Shown here piece by piece: positions 3,799 to 58,818 of a DNA stretch of 64,000 nucleotides; position 1 is the stretch's first letter, and each line of letters opens with the position of its first letter. A program made the translations under genes and the position numbers. The stretch is from positions 1 to 64,000 of the forward strand of contig JAHDLB010000019.1 of assembly GCA_018432315.1 (NCBI GenBank), read 5' to 3'. The DNA is from Anaerolineae bacterium. Its GTDB lineage: Bacteria; Chloroflexota; Anaerolineae; Aggregatilineales; Aggregatilineaceae. The notes under the pieces are model-generated. The model ran no database searches and was not told the origin of the DNA. It was given only the letters and a program-made list of their open reading frames with translations.

Positions 3799-4896
3799 TT
3801 ATATGGACTCCAACAAACGCTGCCGGATGAAATTTACAAAAACCAGCGCCACAAAAGTGGCGACAAACAGCAAGCAATACGCAAGCGCGGACGACGTACC
3901 CAGGTCGATGCCACGCCACAGGTTATATGCGTGCAGGGTCACCGACTCGGTCGCAATGCCTGGACCGCCGCCGGTCAGCGCGTTGGGCATATCGATGATC
4001 TTAAAAGCTTCGATTATGCGGACCAGAATCACGGTGGTGCTAACTGGGATAATCTGCGGCAGGAGGATGTAGCGAAACATCTGCTGCCGATTGGCACCGT
4101 CCACCAGCGCCGCCTCAACGGTCTCAGTCGGGAGTCCTTCCAGTGCGGCCAGCAGAATGATAAAAACAAACGGCGTCCACTGCCAGGTGTCGCCGATGAT
4201 GACGGCCAGGCGCGCAGTCGCCGGGTCATTTACCCACGAGAAATTGTATAAGCCTGCCACTTTCCACATGGGCGCCATAGGGCCGATCAGGGTATCGGTA
4301 AGCATACGGAATAGGAAACCGATTCCAACCGGAGTTATCATCATTGGCAGCAAAAACACGACTCGAAAGAAACGCTTGCCGGGCAGATTTTGAGTGACCA
4401 GCAGGGCGAGGAATAACCCCAAAATATACTGAGCCGCAACTCCCCCAAATACAAAGATCAGGGTCACCACCAGCGTGCCGGGGAGTCCTCTCCCGCTCGA
4501 AGTACGGATGACCAGCCACAGGAGTTCTACGGCGATGATGATCGTGATCACTCGCATGAGGACGCCAAACAGGCGCCGACGCGGGCCAGTGACATAGCGA
4601 AACAACCAGTAGATCATCACCGCGATAAAAACCATCAAGATGATCCACCCGAAGGTCGTGGGGTCGTCAAACCTCCCCAAAAAACGCCTTTGCCCGCTCC
4701 CCTGCAGCAGTTTTTCGTAGTTTTTCAGGCCGATATATTCAATTTCAAACCCGCCCTTCACGAACCTGATTTTTGAAAGGGAGGTGAAGATGGAAAGTAG
4801 CAGGGGAAAAACAGACAAAAACAACACCACCAGGACGGCAGGTAGTAGTAAAACATATCTGGAACGATCATTTAGATGGCTGGGGGGTTCTTCCAT
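3799..4896 (-). CDS. Carbohydrate ABC transporter permease, MalF-like (CUT1), with extra membrane segments
   Basis: A 365-aa membrane protein, longer than the usual 290-310 aa. It opens with YVLLLPAVLVVLFLSVFPLL and IGLKNYEKLL, as in MalF-type subunits, and carries the EAA loop [20 protein letters not shown] and ALTGGGPG near the end. About 80 residues between the first segment and the core add hydrophobic stretches (near 82-103, 114-132 and 140-160). The ribosome-binding site is poor: AGG only a few bases before ATG, within a stem formed by 4900-4929. The gene follows the binding-protein terminator, so translation and transcription both look damped relative to the binding protein. Confidence 0.88.
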   Translation of the reverse strand: MEEPPSHLNDRSRYVLLLPAVLVVLFLSVFPLLLSIFTSLSKIRFVKGGFEIEYIGLKNYEKLLQGSGQRRFLGRFDDPTTFGWIILMVFIAVMIYWLFRYVTGPRRRLFGVLMRVITIIIAVELLWLVIRTSSGRGLPGTLVVTLIFVFGGVAAQYILGLFLALLVTQNLPGKRFFRVVFLLPMMITPVGIGFLFRMLTDTLIGPMAPMWKVAGLYNFSWVNDPATARLAVIIGDTWQWTPFVFIILLAALEGLPTETVEAALVDGANRQQMFRYILLPQIIPVSTTVILVRIIEAFKIIDMPNALTGGGPGIATESVTLHAYNLWRGIDLGTSSALAYCLLFVATFVALVFVNFIRQRLLESI

Positions 4897-47089: not shown

Positions 47090-48376
<1,287 letters not shown>

Positions 48377-48406: not shown

Positions 48407-49846
48407 TTACGGTTGAGCCGCCACCGGCTGCGCCTCGCGCAGGGCCGCGATCACCTGCTCCGCCGTCGCCTGCCCCTGCTTCACACAGTCCGGAATCCCG
48501 ACGCCGCGATAGGCGCTGCCGGTCAGGGACAGGCCCGGCGGGCACAGCGTCTCGATCCGGTCGACGCGCTCCAGGTGGCCGACGTCGTACTGCGGATTGC
48601 CGCGCGGCCAGCGGTACACGCGCGCCACCGATGGCTCGGCCCGCACGCCCATGATAACACGCAGTTCCTCACGCACCAGCCCCACCAGCGCCTCGTCGTC
48701 CCGATCGACCAGGTCTTCGCGGCGCGGCCCGCCGATGAAAGCCCGCAGCAGCACGGTCCCAGGCCGGGCGCGGTGCGTGAACTTGGTGCTGGTCCAGGTG
48801 GCGGCGAGCAGCCGGGTCGGCTCTTTGCGCGGCACGACGAAGCCGAAGCCGTCCAGCGGATGATCGAACGACGCCGCGTCGTAGCCCAGCGACACGGTTG
48901 CGGTGGACACGTAGCGGATCGCGTCGAGCATCCCGGCCAGCTCGGGATGATCCGCTCGCAGCAGGTCGGCGGCGGCATAGGCCGGCGTCGCCAGCACGAC
49001 CGCGTCCGCGGCCAGGGTCCGGCCATCGTCGAGCGCCAGCGTATAGCCGCCCAGTCCACGCTGTAGCTCGGCCACGCCCTGCCCGGTGATGATCGTGCCC
49101 CGCAGCGCGCTCCGCAGCGCGGCCACCAGCTCTTGCAGGCCGCCGCGCAGCGTCATGAAGACCGTCGTTTTGCCCGCGCCGTTCGCCTGCCCGTTGGAGG
49201 CGGCGCTCCGCGCCCGGCGAGCGGCGATCATGCCGCGCGTCAGGCTGCCGTATTGGCGCTCGATGTCGATGAAGCGCGGGAAGGTCGCCTTGAGGCTGAG
49301 CGTCTCCGCGTCGGAAACGTGAATCCCGGCCATCATCGGCTCGGCCAGCACATCCAGCGCTTCCTGCCCCAGCCGCCGCCGGATGAAGTCGGCCAGGCTC
49401 TCGTCGCTCTCGTCGGTGCGCCGGGGAATGAACAGGTCCATCCCCATGCGAATCTTGCCCGGCCACGAGATCAGGTCGGAAGTCACGAACGGCATGAACC
49501 GCGTCGGCACGATCAGCATGAGGCCGTCCGGCATTTTGCGCAGCCGCCCGCCGCGCAGCACGTACACGCTCCGCTGCGCGTCGTTGGTGCCCATCAGCCG
49601 GTCTTCCAGGCCCAGCTCGCGGCACAACTGGATCGCCCACGGCTTCTGGGTGATGAACGAGTCCGGCCCGCCTTCGATCACGAACCCGTCCGGCGTGTCG
49701 GTGGTGATCTTGCCGCCCAGGTGATCGTCGCGCTCGACCAGGGTGATCGCCACGTCCAGCCCGGCGTCGTCCGCGGCGCGCTGCGCGTAATAGGCGGTCG
49801 CCAGCCCGGCGATCCCGCCGCCCACGATGACCAGGCGCCGGCTCAT
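48407..49846 (-). CDS. hemY: Coproporphyrinogen III oxidase / protoporphyrinogen oxidase (HemY/CgoX type)
   Basis: A 479-aa FAD flavoprotein. The dinucleotide motif VIVGGGIAGLATAYYA opens the protein, LVERDDHLGGKITT follows, and GSAYRGVGIPDCVKQGQATAE is the C-terminal FAD motif. With HemQ and a ferrochelatase in the same operon, its probable reaction is oxidation of coproporphyrinogen III to coproporphyrin III. ATG overlaps the hemH stop by four bases (ATGA). No coproporphyrinogen decarboxylase (HemN/HemF) is in the operon, in line with the coproporphyrin-dependent route. Confidence 0.92.
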   Translation of the reverse strand: MSRRLVIVGGGIAGLATAYYAQRAADDAGLDVAITLVERDDHLGGKITTDTPDGFVIEGGPDSFITQKPWAIQLCRELGLEDRLMGTNDAQRSVYVLRGGRLRKMPDGLMLIVPTRFMPFVTSDLISWPGKIRMGMDLFIPRRTDESDESLADFIRRRLGQEALDVLAEPMMAGIHVSDAETLSLKATFPRFIDIERQYGSLTRGMIAARRARSAASNGQANGAGKTTVFMTLRGGLQELVAALRSALRGTIITGQGVAELQRGLGGYTLALDDGRTLAADAVVLATPAYAAADLLRADHPELAGMLDAIRYVSTATVSLGYDAASFDHPLDGFGFVVPRKEPTRLLAATWTSTKFTHRARPGTVLLRAFIGGPRREDLVDRDDEALVGLVREELRVIMGVRAEPSVARVYRWPRGNPQYDVGHLERVDRIETLCPPGLSLTGSAYRGVGIPDCVKQGQATAEQVIAALREAQPVAAQP

Positions 49847-50775
49847 GCTAGGCTCCTTTCATGCTGGCGCACGAGATCGGCTAGCGCCGCGATGAACAGC
49901 GGATCGTCGTTCAGCGACGGCACGCGCTCCAGCCGCGCCCCGGCGGCCTCGGCGGCGGTTTGGGCCTCGATGTCGATGTCGAACAGCACCTCGACGTGAT
50001 CGGCCACGAAGCCCACCACGCACGAGAGCAGGTTCTTGTGGCCGCGCCCCGCCAGCTCGACCACGTATTCCTCGATCTGCGGGCCGAGCCACGGCTCCGG
50101 GCTTTTGCCCGCGCTCTGGTACGAAAACGTCCAGCGATCGTCCGGCAGGCCGGCCTGCGCGGCCACCAGCCGGGCGGTTTCTCGCAACTGGTCGTCATAC
50201 GGATCGCCCTGCTCCATGATGCGGACCGGCAGGCTGTGGGCGCTGAAGATCACCAGCGTGTCGCCCGGCATGCCGTCCAGCCCCTGCTGGACGCGCCGCG
50301 CCAGCGCTTCGACGTACAGCGGGTGATCGTGGTAGCTGGTCACGGCGGCGTAGCTGAAGGGCGCGTCGTGCTCGGCGAGCGCCTCGTCTAGCCGGGCGAA
50401 ATAGCGGGCGATGCTCATGCTCGAATAGTGCGGCGCGAGCACCAGCGCCACCGCCTGTTGAATCCCGTCCTCGATCATCTGCGCGACCGCGTCCTTGATC
50501 CACGGCGTCCAGTGGCGCATCCCGATGTACGTCTTGTAGTGCACGCCGGGGCGCGCGCCGACATTGAGCCGCGCTTCGAGCAGCGCCGCCTGCCGCCGGG
50601 TGATGTCCAGCAAGGGCGACTTGCCGCCGATCTTGCGGTAGTTCTCGGTGATCTCGTCGATGAGCGCCTGCGACGTGGGCCGCCCACCGCGAATGTCGCG
50701 CAGGAAGGCCGGAATGTCGTCCAGCGAGTCCGGCCCGCCGTAGGCCATCAGAAGCACGCCTATCGTCTCTGTCAT
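49843..50775 (-). CDS. hemH: Ferrochelatase (coproporphyrin type, CpfC)
   Basis: A 310-aa enzyme that inserts Fe2+ into coproporphyrin III (inferred from pathway context). Landmarks: [62 protein letters not shown] (active-site His) and [21 protein letters not shown] 50775 overlaps the hemE stop by four bases; the longer frame upstream is a shadow of hemE. No C-terminal Cys cluster for a 2Fe-2S centre was seen. Confidence 0.94.
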
Positions 50776-51824
50776 CGTTCGCTCTCCCTCTGCAAAGCTG
50801 CGCTCCGCTCGTGGACGTATTCGGCCAGCCGCCTGACGTGATCGACCGGCGTTCCCGGCAGGATGCCATGCCCCAGGTTGAAGATGTGGCCCGCCCGCCC
50901 CGCCGTCCGGGCCAGGATATCGTCCACGGCGGGCGCGATGCGCTCCCACGGCGCGAAGAGGGTCACCGGGTCCAGGTTGCCCTGCACGGCGACAACCGGC
51001 CCCAACCGCGCCCAGGCGTCGTCAATCGCGATGCGCCAGTCCACGCCGATGACGTCCGCGCCGGTCTGCACCAGATCGGGCAGCATCCCGTTGAGGTCGG
51101 TGCCGAAATAGATCACCGGCACGCCCGCGCTCTGCGCGCGCGCCACGACGCGTTGGGCGTAGGGCAGCGCCTTCTCGCGGTAGTCGCGCGGGGACAGGAT
51201 GCCCGCCCAGCTATCGAAGACCTGCAGCGCCTGCGCCCCGGCCTCGGCCTGAGCCACGAGATAGTCGCCGACCACCTGCGCCAGCTTGTCCATCAGGCGC
51301 GCCCAGGCGTCCGGCTCGGCGTGCATGAACGTCTTGACCTTGACGTGATTCTTCGAGCCGCCGCCCTCGATCGCGTAGCTCGCCAGCGTGAACGGCGCGC
51401 CGGAGAACCCGATCAGCGGGATGCGCCCGTCCAGCTCGCGCCGGACCAGCCGGATCGCGTCCAGCGTGAACGGCAGGTTCTCGGCAGCCGGGGGCGTGCG
51501 CAGCGCGTCCACGTCCGCCGGGGACGCGATCGGGTTGCCGATGGCCGGCCCCTCGCCCTTGACGAAATCGAGGTCCAGCCCCATGCCGATCAGAATGGGC
51601 AGGATGTCCGCGAAGATGATCGCGGCGTCCAGCTCGAAGGCGTCCACCGGCTGGAGCGTGATCTCGCAGGCCAGCTCCGGCGTGCGGATCACGTCGAGCA
51701 TGGTGTGTTGGGCGCGCACGGCGCGATACTCGGCCATGTAGCGCCCGGCCTGGCGCATTAGCCAGATCGGGGTCGCATCGACCGGCTCGCGGCGGCAGGC
51801 TCTCAAAAAACGGTCGTTCGTCAT
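50772..51824 (-). CDS. hemE: Uroporphyrinogen III decarboxylase
   Basis: A 350-aa enzyme that removes four acetate carboxyls from uroporphyrinogen III to give coproporphyrinogen III. It shows the N-terminal signature [48 protein letters not shown] and [14 protein letters not shown] 51824 overlaps the hemQ stop by four bases. This is the genuine HemE, distinct from the UroD-fold methyltransferase-like protein at 1694-2722. Confidence 0.95.
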
Positions 51825-52915
51825 GCAGTCTCGCTTTCTTCGCGGCGCGCAATGTAGATCGTATCGCCCTCGACGCGCACCCGGTAGGTCGCCACACCGC
51901 GCGGCGACGGCCCGGACAGCACCGCGCCATCTTCCAGGCGGAAGTACGCCTCGTGCCACGGGCAGCGCACCGCCGGGCCGGTTCCATTCTCGTGATGCAG
52001 CGTGCCCTCGCACAGCGGGCCGCGCGCGTGAGGACAGCGGTTGTTCAGCGCGTAGATGTGGCCGTTGGCGCGGAACAGCGCGACCTGCTGCGTCCCGTAA
52101 TACACGCGCAGGGCCGAATCGGGCGAGAGCTCGCCCAGGCTCGCCACGGGCAGCCAGCCGCCGACCTCGGTCACGTCGTCATCGACCAGATCGCTGACCT
52201 GGGCCCCGCCGATCGAGTCCATCATCTCCGGCAGGCTCATCGCGATGGCGATGTGCATCGGCGTGTCGCTGAGGGTGTACATGCTGGCCTCGGTGAAGCG
52301 GAGATCGTTCACCAGATCGACGAAATCGTGCGGATCGTCGCCCTCGAAGGCCACCACGAATTCCTGGTCGTCGATGCCGTAGGAATAGGTCGTGTTGAGC
52401 CGGATGTCCGGATACTTGCGCCCGACGCGAATGTGCTCGGTGATCATCGCCTGGCGCCCCTCCTGCGAGAGCGCGTACCACGCCCGCGTTTTGACGAACG
52501 GGTACACGAACAGGTAGCGCGAGTCGCTCGGCTCGATGCGGATGCGCTCCTCGGCGGACGCGCCGCCCGCGTCTTCCGGCAGGCTGATGTCGTACATGCT
52601 GCGCTTCGTGCCCGACAAAAACGAGCGGGTCACGTCCAGATAGGGCCCCAGCGCCGTGTTGCGGATCGCGGTTTCCAACTGCTGGAAGGCTTCCACGTCT
52701 TCGGCCACGGTCCACAGCAGAAAGTCGACGTCGCGCCGCATCCCGACCAGCGAGTACGAGCGCAGCAGCATCCGCCGGTTGAACCCGCGCACCGTGTCGA
52801 TGAAATCGAGCTTGGCATCGCGCTGCTTGACTTCGGGCAGGCGCAGAAAAGCCGTGGTGTCGAGCTTATAAAACGTGTATTTGACAACCTGACGTCCCGT
52901 CTTGTCGGCTTCCAT
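51821..52915 (-). CDS. hemQ: Coproheme decarboxylase (HemQ/ChdC) fused to a C-terminal Rieske domain
   Basis: A 364-aa fusion. Residues 1-235 match the chlorite-dismutase-like HemQ fold: the [11 protein letters not shown] segment carries Tyr138, in the position of the redox tyrosine, and [12 protein letters not shown] carries His161, in the position of the proximal heme ligand (both by family pattern). Residues 250-364 are a Rieske 2Fe-2S domain with CPH (294-296) and CPWH (318-321) ligand pairs. The family converts coproheme to heme b with H2O2. A Rieske partner could deliver or remove electrons, which is inference. The gene starts 6 bp after hemB. Standard HemQ is about 250 aa without Rieske. 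Confidence 0.92.
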
Positions 52916-52921
52916 GATCGG

Positions 52922-53902
52922 CTACTCCATCTGCTGCAACCACCGCGCCGCGTCTTTGGCGTGATAGGTCAGGATCAGGTCCGCCCCGGCGCGGCGAATG
53001 GCGGTCAAGGTTTCCAGGGCAGCGGCCCGCTCGTCCAGCCAGCCGCGCGCCGCCGCCGCTTTGATCATGCTGTACTCGCCGCTGACGTTGTAGGCCGCCA
53101 CCGGCAGCTCGAACCGCTCGCGCACGCGGCGGATCACGTCCAGGTAGGCCAGCGCGGGCTTGACCATCAGCATGTCGGCCCCTTCGTCGGCATCGAGCTG
53201 GGCCTCGCGCAGGGCTTCGCGGGCGTTGGCCGGGTCCATCTGGTGCGTCCGGCGGTCGCCGAAGGCCGGGGCGCTCTGGGCGGCATCGCGGAACGGGCCG
53301 TAAAACGCGCTGGCGTATTTGACCGCATACGACAGGATGCTGACGTCTGCATACCCGGCGCCGTCCAGCGCCGCGCGGATGGCGCCCACCATGCCGTCCA
53401 TCATGCCGCTGGGCGCGACGACGTCCGCCCCGGCTGCCGCGTGCGACACGGCGACCCGGCCCAGGATGTCGAGCGTCTCGTCGTTGAGGATGTCGCCATC
53501 GCGCACGATCCCGCAGTGCCCGTGATCGGTGTACTCGCACAGGCAGACGTCGGTCATCACCAGGGTGGCCGGGTTGGCGTCCTTGATGGCGCAGATCGCC
53601 TGCTGCACGATGCCGTCATCGGCGAAGTTCTCCCGGCCCAGCGGGTCCTTGTGCGCCGGGATGCCGAACAGGATCACCGCCGGAATCCCCAGCGCCGCCA
53701 GCGACTCGATCTCGCCCGGCAGGCGGTCCACCGACTGGTGGAAGACGCCGGGCATCGAGGGGATCTCCTCGCGCACGTCGCGGCCATGCACCACGAACAG
53801 CGGGTAAACGAAATTGGCCGGGCGCAGCGTCGTCTCGCGGACCATCGCCCGCAGGCTGGGGCTGGTGCGCAATCGGCGCAGTCGAACGGTCGGGAAAGTC
53901 AT
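52922..53902 (-). CDS. hemB: Delta-aminolevulinic acid dehydratase (porphobilinogen synthase)
   Basis: A 326-aa enzyme that condenses two 5-aminolevulinate molecules. It has the zinc-type metal site ([14 protein letters not shown]), the Schiff-base lysines in [16 protein letters not shown] and [10 protein letters not shown], and [17 protein letters not shown] 53902 overlaps the hemD stop by four bases; the ten residues before it in the open frame are not native. Length is normal. Confidence 0.95.
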
Positions 53903-54672
53903 GGTGCGTGATCCCTTTCGAATAGCTGGCACAGGGCATCGATCAGCCCGTCGATGGTGTACGGATCGGCCACGGCGTGCACCGGCAGTCCCAACTCACG
54001 AACCGCCGCCGCCGTCACCGGGCCGATGCAGACCACCGCCGCGCCGACGGTGGCCGCCCGCGGATCGTCGAACAGATCGGCGAAGTTTTGGGCGGTCGAG
54101 GCGCTGGTAAACGTCACGGCGTCGACCGGCGCGGGGAGTTCCCCGGCGCCCGCCGGGCGGACCGTCTCGTAAGCGACCACCGCATCGACCCGCGCGCCCG
54201 CCTCGCGCAGCAGGCCGGCCAGCACCGGGCGGGCCAGGTTCCCCTGGGGCAGCAGGACGCGCAGCCCCGGCAGGCTGACCCGGTCGCGCAGCGCCACGAA
54301 CAGCGCCTCGGCGATGTGCTCGGCGGGTACCAGCGCCGGAGGCACGCCGCGCTCCGCCAGCGCCTGGGCGGTCGCGGGCCCAATGGCCGCCACGTCCGGC
54401 CAATTCAGCCGCGCCGGGTCCAGGCCGAGCGCCGCCAGCCGCGCCCAAAGCTGGGGCACGGCGTTGGCGCTGGTGACGATCAGCCAGTCGTAGCGATCCA
54501 GGCGGCGCAGGGCATCATCCAGCGGGGCGGGATCGCCCGGCGGCTGGATGCGAATGGTGGGCAGCAGCACCGGCTCGGCGCCCAGGCTGCGCAGCCGCGC
54601 GGCGAAATCCGCCGCTTTGTGCGGCGGGCGCGTGATCACGATTCGCCTGCCGTGCAGCGGGTGGGCCATCAT
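53899..54672 (-). CDS. hemD: Uroporphyrinogen III synthase
   Basis: A 257-aa enzyme that cyclises hydroxymethylbilane with ring-D inversion. The family is weakly conserved but shows [69 protein letters not shown] and [13 protein letters not shown] 54672 overlaps the hemC stop by four bases. A longer in-frame extension to 54996 overlaps hemC and is rejected. Confidence 0.92.
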
Positions 54673-55607
54673 CGCGGCAGCCCTCCGCGAACCTCGGCCA
54701 GCAGCGCCTCCGCGCCCTGGGCGAGCGCCTCCCCGGCCAGCCGCGCGCCGAGATCGTCCGCCTCCGCCGGGGACGCCGCCCCGGTGACGGTGATCGTCTG
54801 CGCGCCGTCCAGGCGGCTGACGCGGCCCGCCAGCCGCAGCGATCCACCGTCCAGCGTCGCCAGCGCGGCGACGGGCAGCCGGCAGCCGGCATCGAGCCGC
54901 GCCAGAAACGCGCGCTCCGCCATCACGGCTACGCGCGTCGGGGCGTCGTCGAGGGGCGCCAGCAGCGCCCGCGCCCGGTCGTCGTCCGCGCGGCACTGCA
55001 CCGCCACCGCGCCCTGCCCCGGCGCGGGCAGCATGATCGCGGCGTCGAGCACCTGCGTGATCGCGTCGCGCCGCCCCAGCCGGTCCAGCCCCGCCACGGC
55101 CAGGACGATCGCGTCGTACGGCCCGGCGGGATCGCTCGCTTTGCGCAGGCGGGTGTCGACGTTGCCGCGCAGCGAGTCGGTGGTCAGGTCCGGGCGAGCG
55201 GCCAGAAGCTGCGCCCGGCGGCGCAGGCTGCTCGTGCCGACCGTCGCGCCGGGGGGCAGCGCGTCCAGCGGCAGACCGTCGCGGCTCACCAGCGCGTCGA
55301 ACGGATCGACCCGCGCAAGGATCGCCGCCAGCGCGAACGCGCCGGGCATCTCGGTCGGCAGGTCCTTGAGACTGTGCACCGCCAGATCGATCGTCCCGGC
55401 GCGCAGGGCGTCCTCAAGCTCCTGGGTGAACAGCCCCTTACCGCCGATCTCCGGCAGCGGCCTGTCGATCACGCGGTCGCCGGTCGTCGTCAGGTGGACG
55501 ATCTCGACCGGCAGGCCGGGATGGTGAGCGCGCAGGGCGTCCCGCACGTGGTGCGTCTGCCAGAGCGCCAGGGCGCTGCGGCGCGTTCCGATCCGTAACG
55601 GGTCCAT
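54669..55607 (-). CDS. hemC: Porphobilinogen deaminase (hydroxymethylbilane synthase)
   Basis: A 312-aa enzyme polymerising four porphobilinogens. It has LRIGTRRSALALWQ, GGKGLFTQELEDAL, AVHSLKDLPTEMP, VGTSSLRRRAQLL, RGNVDTRLRK and the cofactor-binding cysteine in LDAGCRLPVAA. ATG 55607 shares one base with the hemA stop (TGATG). It is tightly coupled to hemA upstream and hemD downstream. Confidence 0.95.
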   Translation of the reverse strand: MDPLRIGTRRSALALWQTHHVRDALRAHHPGLPVEIVHLTTTGDRVIDRPLPEIGGKGLFTQELEDALRAGTIDLAVHSLKDLPTEMPGAFALAAILARVDPFDALVSRDGLPLDALPPGATVGTSSLRRRAQLLAARPDLTTDSLRGNVDTRLRKASDPAGPYDAIVLAVAGLDRLGRRDAITQVLDAAIMLPAPGQGAVAVQCRADDDRARALLAPLDDAPTRVAVMAERAFLARLDAGCRLPVAALATLDGGSLRLAGRVSRLDGAQTITVTGAASPAEADDLGARLAGEALAQGAEALLAEVRGGLPR

Positions 55608-56860
55608 CAAACCGTGTCTTCCAGTCCAAACAGATCGCGGGCCAGCGCGGCGACCATCGCGCCGTCTTCCTGCCCGGCCTTCGCCTTCAGATTGTGGGTG
55701 AGGTGGTGCAGCATCTTATTCATCAGCCGGTGGCTGAACTGCTCGAACAGCGTGCGCTCGCGGTCGCTTTCGGGGGGCAGGCGGTTGTAGGCCCAATTCA
55801 GCTCGGCCTGGCGAAGCTGCTCGGCCTGCTCGCGCAGCAGGCGAATGGTGGGCGCCACCGAGCGCGCCTGGTAATCGCCCCAGAATTTCGACAGCTCCTC
55901 CTCGATGATGCGCTCCACGGCGGGGATGTTCGCCTGCCGCTCCTCGAACGTCGCCTCGATCACGTGCTGCAGGTCGTCCAGGTCGTGGAGGCACACGCCG
56001 GGAATGGCCGCGACCGCCGGGTCCACGTCGCGCGGGACGGCGATATCCACGATGCACAGCGGGCGGCGTGGGCGGGCCTGCATGACCGGCGCGACGTCTT
56101 CCGGCGCGAGGATGGTGAACGGCGCGCTCGACGTCGTGAACAGGACATCCGCCTCGGTGAGCGCCTCTTTGAGCTCGGTGATAGGCCGGACCGCGACGTC
56201 CCAGGCACCGGCCAACTGCCGCGCGCGGTCGAAGGTTCGGCTGACGACCGTGACCCGCCGTGCCCCGCGCTGGGCCAGCGCCTTGACGATCGTCTCGGCC
56301 ATGTCGCCCGCGCCCAGGACCATCACCGCCCGCTCGGCCAGCGCGCCGAGCGTCTCTTCGGCGCGGGCGATCCCCAGCGCGCTCACCGATGCCGAGCCAG
56401 TGCCGATCGTCGTCTCGGTCCGGGCGCGTTTGGCCGCGTGGATCGCGGTGCGGAACAGCAGCGAGAGCGACGGCCCGGCGGCGCCGTGCTCGTGCGCCCC
56501 CTGGTAGGCGCCCGTCACCTGGCCGAGGATTTGCGGCTCGCCCAGGGCCATCGATTCCAGGCCGCAGCTCACGCGGACGAGGTGGCGCGCCGCATCCACG
56601 CCGGCCAGCGCGACGGTGTACGCGGCCACGTCGCCGGGCTGCACGTCGCGGCAGCGCAGCAGGTCCGCCCACAGCGCATCCATGTGCTGGGCCGATGGCA
56701 GGTGCGCGTACAACTCCAGCCGGTTACAGGTCGAGAGGATGGCCGCCTCAGCGCCGCGCCGTTGGGACAGCCATTCGGCCTGCTGCCGGGCGGTCAGGCT
56801 CAGTTTTTCGCGCACGGCGAGGGGTGTGGTGTGGTGGCTGACGCTCCGGCAGAAGAACAT
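55607..56860 (-). CDS. hemA: Glutamyl-tRNA reductase
   Basis: A 417-aa NADPH enzyme making glutamate-1-semialdehyde from glutamyl-tRNA, the committed and usually regulated step. It has SHHTTPLAVREKL, the catalytic Cys in LSTCNRLELYAH, LGEPQILGQV, the NADPH motif VLGAGDMAE, and a C-terminal dimerisation helix (LFEQFSHRLMNKMLHHLTHNLK). It starts 6 bp after the regulator stop, so regulator and hemA are probably one transcript. AAAGGTGAGAG precedes the ATG. Confidence 0.95.
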   Translation of the reverse strand: MFFCRSVSHHTTPLAVREKLSLTARQQAEWLSQRRGAEAAILSTCNRLELYAHLPSAQHMDALWADLLRCRDVQPGDVAAYTVALAGVDAARHLVRVSCGLESMALGEPQILGQVTGAYQGAHEHGAAGPSLSLLFRTAIHAAKRARTETTIGTGSASVSALGIARAEETLGALAERAVMVLGAGDMAETIVKALAQRGARRVTVVSRTFDRARQLAGAWDVAVRPITELKEALTEADVLFTTSSAPFTILAPEDVAPVMQARPRRPLCIVDIAVPRDVDPAVAAIPGVCLHDLDDLQHVIEATFEERQANIPAVERIIEEELSKFWGDYQARSVAPTIRLLREQAEQLRQAELNWAYNRLPPESDRERTLFEQFSHRLMNKMLHHLTHNLKAKAGQEDGAMVAALARDLFGLEDTV

Positions 56861-56866
56861 CGACTC

Positions 56867-57526
56867 TCACCTTTCGTCGCGGTCCGAAAACGCTTCGTAA
56901 TACTCGATGAAGCTGACCTGGACGACGTTGAACACCTGGTTCAGCTTGCGGAGCAGGCGCATCTGAGCATCGCCGCCCAGCGCCGCCAGATGGGGCATTT
57001 GCAGCGCGACCTCGGTCGTCGTGTCGCGGAAGAACGCCGTCGCCTCGAGCCCCTGCGCTGCCGACAGCCCGGCCTGGACGCAGTTGTGGGCATAGCGCGC
57101 GGCGATGCCCTTGGCCTCGATCAGCAGGTGCGAATCGTCGTCGGGCGCGGAAATGTGCTGCATGACCAGGCCCATCAGGCGGCGGCCCAGCTCGCGCTTT
57201 TCGTCGCGGTGCTCGGCGTCGAAGGCGGTCAGCCACAGCGGCTCCGGCTGCCGGATCAGCCGCTGGCGCGTCTCGACCAGGGCGAAATCGCCCCAGGCGC
57301 GCCCGGTCGTGTCGCGCAGGTGGGCCGGAGGGTCGTCGCGCTGCATGCGGGCCAGCAGTTCCCGGCGCAAAAAACGGCGGTGCCCGCCGGGCGTCAGCTT
57401 GACCGGGATGTCGCCGTTGTCCGCCCAGCGGCGCAGCGTGGTCGGGTGAACTCCCAGCAGATCCGCCGCTTCGGAGAGGGTCAACCATTCAGGTTCACGT
57501 GCAGTCATAAGGCGCTCTTGGTCCAT
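56867..57526 (-). CDS. BldC-like (MerR-type HTH) regulator with sensor domain, first gene of the heme operon
   Basis: About 219 aa. Residues 10-60 form an excisionase/MerR-type winged helix (LTLSEAADLLGVHPTTLRRWADNGDIPVKLTPGGHRRF) close to BldC in pattern. The remaining 150 residues, with AARYAHNCVQAGLSAAQGLEATAFFRDTTTEVAL, resemble an RsbRD-N-type helical sensor; this is a tentative match. ATG 57526 is preferred because AGG is 7 bp upstream; 57532 and 57508 are alternatives. It directly precedes hemA. One-turn-spaced ATCTA repeats begin about 12 bp upstream, fitting the direct-repeat binding of BldC. It probably senses a heme-related or redox signal and autoregulates. Confidence 0.78.
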   Translation of the reverse strand: MDQERLMTAREPEWLTLSEAADLLGVHPTTLRRWADNGDIPVKLTPGGHRRFLRRELLARMQRDDPPAHLRDTTGRAWGDFALVETRQRLIRQPEPLWLTAFDAEHRDEKRELGRRLMGLVMQHISAPDDDSHLLIEAKGIAARYAHNCVQAGLSAAQGLEATAFFRDTTTEVALQMPHLAALGGDAQMRLLRKLNQVFNVVQVSFIEYYEAFSDRDER

Positions 57527-57537
57527 AAACATACCTG

Positions 57538-57582
57538 AATCTAATGAAATCTAGCTTTATCTATTTTTGCAGAAAAAATCTA
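57538..57582. repeat. Helically phased ATCTA repeats in the heme intergenic region
   Basis: ATCTA occurs at 57539, 57549 and 57559, exactly 10 bp apart, and again at 57578; another lies at 57649. In the first three, the base before is A or T, giving (A/T)ATCTA. The array sits in the 180-bp AT-rich spacer between the regulator-hemA operon and the divergent radical-SAM gene. Repeats on one face of the helix are what a cooperatively binding BldC-type protein would need. Confidence 0.6.
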
Positions 57583-57705
57583 CAAAACCTCAACTTCTAT
57601 CACTAATCTGCCATGACAAAACTCACTTGTATCAATCAACATTTCATTATCTACTTGGATGAGATAGTTTTACATAGTTTTGCATATTTTCGCAAGGGGT
57701 AACCA

Positions 57706-58818
57706 ATGGCCTATCCACCACCACGCCTGGTGTTCTGGGAAACGACGGCGGGCTGCAATCTCCGCTGCATCCACTGCCGCCGCATCGAAGTCGCCGATCA
57801 GCTCACGCCGCAAGACCTCACCACCACGGAAGCCTTCACCCTGATCGACCAACTGGCGGCAGTGGGCAGGCCCGTCTTCGTGCTGTCCGGCGGCGAGCCG
57901 CTGATGCGACCGGACATCCTCGACATCGCGCGCTATGCAACCGACGCCGGCCTGCCCGTGGCGCTGGCGACCAACGGCACACTGATCGATGACGACCTCG
58001 CGGCGCGCATCCGCGACAGCGGCGTGAAGCGCGTGAGCATCTCGTTCGACGGCGCGGACGCCCCCACCCACGACGCCTTTCGCGCGCTGCGCGGCTCGTT
58101 CGATGCCGCCGTCCGTGGCCTCCGGGCGCTGCGGCGAGTTGGGCTGCCGGTCCAGATCAACACAACGGTCGCCAGGCACAACCAGCAGCAGCTCAACGAC
58201 GTGCTGGCGCTGGCGAAAGACCTGGACGCCGTCGCGCTGCACCTGTTCCTGCTGGTGCCGGTCGGCTGCGGCGTGGAGATCGCCGACGACCAGATGGTGA
58301 GCGCGGCGGACTACGAGCGCATCCTGAACTGGCTGTACGATACCGAGCAGGCCGAGCCGGACCTGCAGCTCAAGGCCACCTGCGCCCCGCACTACTTCCG
58401 CGTGATGCGTCAGCGCCGCGCCGAGGACAACCGCCAGGGCAAGGGCCGCGATTTGCCCGCCAGCCATGCCCGCCAGGTACACGGGCACCCGCACGGGCAG
58501 ATGCACGCCGCGACGAAAGGCTGCCTGGCCGGGACCGGGGTCTGTTTCGTGTCGCACCGGGGCGAGGTGTTCCCGTGCGGCTACCTGCCGGTTGCGGCGG
58601 GGAACGTCCGGCAGCGGGCGTTTGGGGACATCTGGCAGGACAGCCCGTTGTTCGCCGAAATGCGCGACCCGGATCTGCTGGGCGGCAAGTGTGGGGTCTG
58701 CCAGTTTAAGGCGCTGTGCAGCGGATGCCGGGCGCGAGCCTACGGCGTCACCGGCGATTACCTGGCCGAAGAGCCGTTCTGCGCCTACGAGCCGGAAACA
58801 CGGACCGTGAGCCTATAG
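57706..58818 (+). CDS. ahbD: Radical SAM protein, AhbD-type heme synthase candidate
   Basis: A 370-aa protein. The radical-SAM cluster motif is CNLRCIHC (residues 12-19), with LSGGEPLMRPDI for SAM binding. The C-terminal auxiliary region has CLAGTGVCFVSHRGEVFPCGYLP, GKCGVCQFKALCSGCRARAYG and TGDYLAEEPFC, the cysteine pattern of the AhbC/AhbD/NirJ group and closest to AhbD. A His-rich HGHPHGQMH precedes it. AhbD converts coproheme to heme b without oxygen, so it would substitute for HemQ. AAGGGG precedes the ATG. It is divergent from the heme operon across a shared promoter region. AhbC- or NirJ-like activity cannot be excluded. Confidence 0.82.
   Translation: MAYPPPRLVFWETTAGCNLRCIHCRRIEVADQLTPQDLTTTEAFTLIDQLAAVGRPVFVLSGGEPLMRPDILDIARYATDAGLPVALATNGTLIDDDLAARIRDSGVKRVSISFDGADAPTHDAFRALRGSFDAAVRGLRALRRVGLPVQINTTVARHNQQQLNDVLALAKDLDAVALHLFLLVPVGCGVEIADDQMVSAADYERILNWLYDTEQAEPDLQLKATCAPHYFRVMRQRRAEDNRQGKGRDLPASHARQVHGHPHGQMHAATKGCLAGTGVCFVSHRGEVFPCGYLPVAAGNVRQRAFGDIWQDSPLFAEMRDPDLLGGKCGVCQFKALCSGCRARAYGVTGDYLAEEPFCAYEPETRTVSL

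Follow-up and report, generated by a model that had tools for sequence, protein, structure and literature searches.

The locus analysed here raises the question of which repeated words between two divergent transcription units form an operator, and which protein reads them. In the window (the whole stretch of DNA that was analysed, 64 kb), an intergenic region parts a regulator and hem genes on the minus strand from a radical SAM/SPASM (rSAM) gene on the plus strand. The initial annotation had proposed that phased ATCTA words in this region serve a BldC-like regulator leading the heme operon, and the regulator does head the hemA operon, both here and in many relatives. The minus-strand order is regulator, hemA, hemC, hemD, hemB, HemQ-Rieske fusion, hemE, hemH, hemY, hemL, and the genes were assigned as follows.

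57706-58818, plus strand: AhbD-like radical SAM/SPASM protein, putative coproheme decarboxylase (TIGR04545, 464 against a cut-off of 500; TIGR04053, 362 against 395)
56867-57532, minus strand: regulator, 221 aa, BldC-like HTH (about 16-65) and C-terminal helical domain, probably sensor-globin-like (about 74-221) (HTH_17, 1.5e-14; MerR, 1e-8)
55607-56860, minus strand: hemA, glutamyl-tRNA reductase (TIGR01035, 352 bits, cut-off 210)
54669-55610, minus strand: hemC (Porphobil_deam, 4e-82)
53899-54996, minus strand: hemD, listed ORF, real start probably later (HEM4, 7e-62, residues 130-352)
52922-53932, minus strand: hemB (ALAD, 5e-150)
51821-52915, minus strand: HemQ (coproheme decarboxylase-like) fused to a Rieske domain (Chlor_dismutase, 3e-56; Rieske, 9e-18)
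50772-52013, minus strand: hemE, listed ORF, real start probably later (URO-D, 2e-132, residues 65-402)
49843-50949, minus strand: hemH, ferrochelatase, listed ORF, real start probably later (Ferrochelatase, 6e-91; TIGR00109, 258 bits, cut-off 125)
48407-49846, minus strand: hemY, proto/coproporphyrinogen oxidase (TIGR00562, 340 bits, cut-off 98)
47090-48376, minus strand: hemL (TIGR00713, 636 bits, cut-off 527)

The rSAM protein scored below the equivalog cut-off of TIGR04545 (AhbD heme b synthase), which was still the closest model and matched over the full length. AhbD and HemQ (ChdC) are alternative enzymes for the conversion of coproheme to heme (PMC7242693), and the intergenic region thus faces both. 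The HemQ-like protein is fused to a Rieske [2Fe-2S] domain and has the AhbD-like gene as a neighbour, so this locus combines two alternatives for the final step of heme synthesis.

When the ATCTA words were located, all five were present on the plus strand at the positions first reported (57539, 57549, 57559, 57578 and 57649), and the first three indeed follow one another in exact 10-bp steps. Such an exact triple occurs once in the 5.69-Mb genome. As a control for the phasing, the 173-bp intergenic region was shuffled 5000 times with dinucleotides preserved: ATCTA three times at step 10 was found in 0/5000 shuffles, any pentamer three times at step 10 in 0.06%, and any pentamer three times at any equal step from 6 to 24 in 0.7% (P=0.007). 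Thus, since shuffles rarely reproduce phased pentamers even with word and step freely chosen, the phasing is beyond chance.

To obtain a matrix independent of this locus, 24 regulator promoters were taken from other families and orders of the class, with the window's own order left out. De novo motif discovery in these promoters returned a 10-bp tandem repeat, TTGCATAGATTTGCATAGATTT, with the unit TAGATTTGCA (log-likelihood 213); the motif itself, TTGCaTAGATTTGCaTAGATTT, holds two copies of the unit. With a non-redundant set and equal effort, the log-likelihood was 181, compared with 72-81 in 12 shuffled sets. The word recognised is TAGATTTGCA on the transcribed strand, and ATCTA is the core of TAGATTTGCA on the other strand. 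When the window was scored with this matrix, its two highest values fell at 57660 (19.2) and 57670 (14.3), both on the plus strand and 10 bp apart. They belong to a second 10-bp-phased array that is stronger than the ATCTA triple, had been overlooked, and sits at the other end of this intergenic region, before the AhbD-like gene.

57660-57694, plus strand: main candidate operator array before the rSAM gene, 10-bp direct repeats ATAGTTTTAC ATAGTTTTGC ATATTTTCGC (matrix and family)
57539-57568, minus strand: second, diverged array in the regulator leader, the ATCTA triple (sequence; matrix 2.3)

On the regulator strand the ATCTA triple reads TAGAT-N5-TAGAT-N5-TAGAT, a diverged form of the same word as the conserved repeat. 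Its matrix score of 2.3 is not significant in the 64-kb window, and over the family it gave a weak joint signal (Fisher p=0.001). The array is poorly conserved and largely fails the comparison with relatives that keep the regulator-hemA pairing, on which the initial annotation had staked it, and as a conserved operator it was rejected. It is best read as a weaker, diverged operator copy before the regulator. The idea of a phased direct-repeat operator conserved with the regulator family before heme genes survives, and it is the rSAM-side array, not the ATCTA triple, that carries it.

A profile search of the window's own genome found one strong site only (E 8.7e-5; next 1.5); this profile was trained with the 57660-57694 site included, and the independent matrix agrees with it within the window. 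A large regulon of the array in this genome was thereby ruled out. An array-like pattern at 4708 of the window lies inside a permease ORF and was taken as chance, and the genome's own PUCC homologue was dismissed as a target, its upstream region being without a significant array.

To follow both arrays in close relatives, we examined the window's family (18 genomes), in which eight regulator orthologues were found, the window's own included. All eight are with hemA, and in seven of them rSAM, the intergenic region, the regulator and hemA follow one another in this order. The alignment of these seven regions showed that ATCTA is not conserved, while a promoter-like block on the rSAM side and the repeats TAGTTTTACATAGTTTTGCATA are; the rSAM array is present on the plus strand in every one. 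Among family loci with an rSAM promoter, 8/9 carry the array, and a three-unit test preferred lag 10 in 7/8 of the carriers. Three further genomes served as natural experiments, each a single case in which MAG incompleteness limits how presence and absence can be read. In G001, where the regulator sits at another place and rSAM and hemA diverge from each other with no gene between them, the array on the rSAM side is kept and the one on the regulator side is gone. G011, where no regulator orthologue was found, has lost the rSAM array and retains two TAGATTTT words before hemA. The incomplete MAG G006 keeps the array with no regulator orthologue detected.

The promoter-like features of the intergenic region, inferred from the sequence and its relatives, were the following.

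57577-57582, minus strand: putative -10 box of the regulator-hemA promoter, TAGATT, including the ATCTA at 57578 (relatives have TAGAAT/TAGGAT at the same place)
57627-57655, plus strand: putative rSAM promoter, TTGTAT-17-TCTACT, including the ATCTA at 57649 (block conserved in seven family regions)
57614-57629, plus strand: conserved TGACA-N5-CACTTG, overlapping the putative rSAM -35 box (family alignment)

The ATCTA words at 57578 and 57649 stand outside the phased set and appear to coincide with the putative -10 boxes of the divergent promoters. A promoter scan gave no consensus promoter for regulator-hemA, and the putative rSAM promoter is not a match to the sigma-70 consensus. TGACA-N5-CACTTG is exact in 5/7 family regions, with close variants in the other two, and a second regulator may bind there; the element is kept (as TGACAAAAAGCACTGG) in G011, where the rSAM array is lost. 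The distance from the end of the putative -10 box to the start of the array peaked at 7-9 nt (31/89 distinct arrays). Since the box most often ends at this distance, the array would start near the presumed transcription start, a position that fits and favours repression by occlusion of the start site.

To see whether the repeat accompanies the regulator more widely, we scanned loci in 80 named genomes, most of which belong to Anaerolineae and Chloroflexia. In 58 test loci that were unused in training and had no sequence in common with the training loci, 20 of the 22 strong sites marked the start of a regulator or rSAM gene, against an expected 3.3% (p=4.5e-28). Near the regulator, roughly half of the named loci showed no array above threshold. 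A class-wide pattern search was followed by inspection of 40 sites; a reversed-pattern control also matched often, and the evidence therefore lies in gene context, not in array count. Directly before the regulator gene was the commonest site, even where heme genes are not close. Among the inspected sites, arrays also stood shortly before hemA-hemC in five genomes of two families, and before hemQ-hemH, rSAM-hemY, hemY-hemH and hemY in other families. Five were beside PUCC-family transporter genes (two confirmed by Pfam, the rest by likeness), and in four genomes an array preceded an unnamed membrane protein. Across Chloroflexota, the repeat lies just downstream of the -10 boxes of the regulator, rSAM-hemY, hemA and hemQ-hemH. 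In f3, arrays precede heme genes though the regulator is unlinked there, and the regulator's own promoter is without an array. What the computation shows directly is thus the repeat with its phasing and position, together with its association with the regulator and with heme genes.

Several observations were made beside these targets. The unnamed multi-helix membrane protein (no Pfam match), with the array upstream in four genomes, adjoins a regulator paralogue in a fifth, G161 (loci: the L118:2825 region, L121, L136, L108 and L275). In Chloroflexus (L202, L197) a PUCC-family transporter directly follows the regulator; several hundred bp upstream, past inserted repeat-like sequence, stands an array with a -10-like box. 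Some arrays of the f3 genomes (L098-L102) precede genes of other kinds, coding for an exported protein that resembles squalene cyclases or for a periplasmic binding protein (Peripla_BP_2), the latter possibly part of a heme, B12 or siderophore importer. The regulator orthologues L040, L046, L047 and L054 adjoin a DtxR-type iron repressor gene (Fe_dep_repress Pfam match in L047), with FeoA/FeoB-like genes, judged by eye, also near. In nearly all family genomes a paralogue built from the same two domains as the regulator adjoins priA (L022, G000:C63:125090-125701; L010-L024).

The regulator itself was examined in its two parts. The assignment of a BldC-like HTH proved sound: a PDB profile search gave BldC (6amk/6ama, E 4e-8) as the best match, with PDB matches confined to the HTH, and Foldseek likewise ranked BldC first; the score against the NCBIfam BldC model NF033787 was 47.2 bits, below the curated cut-off of 77. 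Alignment to 6amk/6ama showed that the BldC contact residues Arg30, Trp31, His46, Arg47 and Arg48 are kept, and their equivalents are invariant in 34 members. The C-terminal domain (148 residues) had no Pfam match in any of the 34 members, and attempts to name it by Pfam or PDB sequence search gave no credible match. A CarH-type B12 domain was ruled out, as Pfam found no cobalamin-binding match in this part of the regulator or in the 34 members. The extra domain had been described as sensor-like, and it does resemble a sensor fold: its AlphaFold model (pLDDT 84) had sensor globins, both heme-binding and heme-free, as its top PDB matches in Foldseek, with weak E-values of 0.015-0.1, and the isolated domain matched globins weakly (E 0.06 or worse, TM 0.5-0.6). 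The domain is probably globin-like. The alignment of members showed no invariant His and no conserved proximal histidine in it; positions 126 and 147 alternate between Tyr and His and could, though need not, be heme ligands. In the tree, one clade (99/94) unites the heme-linked regulators with the Chloroflexia proteins and excludes the priA-linked proteins.

Comparison with known systems places the regulator near two of them. It has its HTH sequence and fold in common with Streptomyces BldC (PDB 6AMA/6AMK), whose smeA motif CATTTGCAC consists of AT-rich direct repeats of about one turn (PMC5859096), as does GATTTGCAT here; BldC, however, is a developmental regulator of 68 aa with an HTH and no sensor domain, whereas the present protein has 221 aa, an extra domain and heme targets. 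The B12-dependent repressors CarH/LitR have an HTH of MerR-like type and a sensor domain apart from it, and repress promoters by binding direct repeats in tandem (PMC9304148). The present regulator resembles them in the HTH (weak PDB matches to 8jbs and 5c8d), in the tandem repeats and, on the reading proposed here, in promoter repression and a separate sensor domain; CarH uses 11-bp repeats of TnnACA and a cobalamin domain, whereas TAGATTTGCA here recurs at 10 bp and no B12 domain was matched. Classical MerR activators bind a palindrome inside a long -35/-10 spacer, unlike the direct repeat downstream of the -10 box. The sensor globins AfGcHK, DosC and BpeGReg and the heme-free pXO1-118/pXO2-61 were consistent top Foldseek matches (TM <=0.62 by query length), and differ from the C-terminal domain in that the latter has no sequence match to them and no invariant histidine. 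HrrSA, ChrSA, DtxR, PerR and SpxA1 regulate hemA and the terminal heme genes of bacteria that use the coproporphyrin pathway (PMC10991733); their protein families and operators differ from those found here, and none is described for Chloroflexota in the text consulted. In the literature searched, with partial coverage, we found no described regulator of heme synthesis in this phylum.

We consider it probable that the BldC/CarH-type regulator binds the TAGATTTGCA repeats and represses the hem operon and the AhbD-like gene in a ligand-tuned manner. The main competing explanation, which we regard as unlikely, is that the repeat is the operator of a wider regulator family, so that priA-linked or other sister paralogues also recognise it and, in some lineages, govern heme genes. 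In f43 and f38, arrays stand 22-66 bp before hemA and only a sister paralogue was found; the array and the heme-clade regulator are thus not strictly paired one to one there, the operator may be shared more widely, and the HTH regions of the heme-clade and sister groups are indeed alike. Yet all but two of the family genomes searched have such a paralogue, and the rSAM array tracks the heme-clade protein.

Still less probable is that some unrelated regulator of heme, iron or redox state owns the array, with the BldC-like gene merely a neighbour. The DtxR-like genes that lie nearby in some relatives and the separate TGACA-N5-CACTTG element in the same promoter are compatible with this, but the commonest array is directly before the regulator gene, also without a close heme gene, and a head-to-tail 10-bp direct repeat suits BldC-type binding, not the palindromes of DtxR or Fur. 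That the repeats are an AT-rich promoter or leader feature (DNA curvature or an RNA leader element) and no protein site is very improbable, since, despite their 5' leader position, AT-richness and a 10-bp A/T phasing that favours bending, the unit keeps its G and C positions, the repeat does not arise in shuffles that preserve dinucleotides, and array presence tracks gene identity across families.

The results are thus best read as a regulator-operator system for heme genes, widespread in Chloroflexota, in which we infer binding of the regulator to the repeat, repression by that binding, and control by a ligand. The regulator would oligomerise head-to-tail on the 10-bp direct repeats just downstream of the -10 boxes and, by covering the start sites, repress both the hem operon that it leads and the AhbD-like gene on the other side. 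In relatives, the same repression would act on separate heme operons (hemA, rSAM-hemY, hemQ-hemH) and on a PUCC-type transporter. How far the repeats are occupied would depend on a small signal bound by the sensor-globin-like domain; the likeliest candidates are a tetrapyrrole and a signal of heme, iron or oxygen status. A bolder version, that factors with a BldC head and a globin fold directly sense heme or another tetrapyrrole (or O2) and run a phylum-wide heme regulon, coordinating synthesis, the choice of HemQ or radical SAM for the last step, and PUCC-type transport, is speculative and we hold it to be rather doubtful.

These results provide a concrete protein, an operator sequence and a list of targets for heme synthesis in Chloroflexota. 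If the proposed reading is true, direct-repeat repression of the BldC/CarH type would extend to core metabolism, paired with a probable globin-like sensor, and a single control point would govern the final step of heme synthesis in both its alternative forms, by HemQ and by the AhbD-like enzyme.
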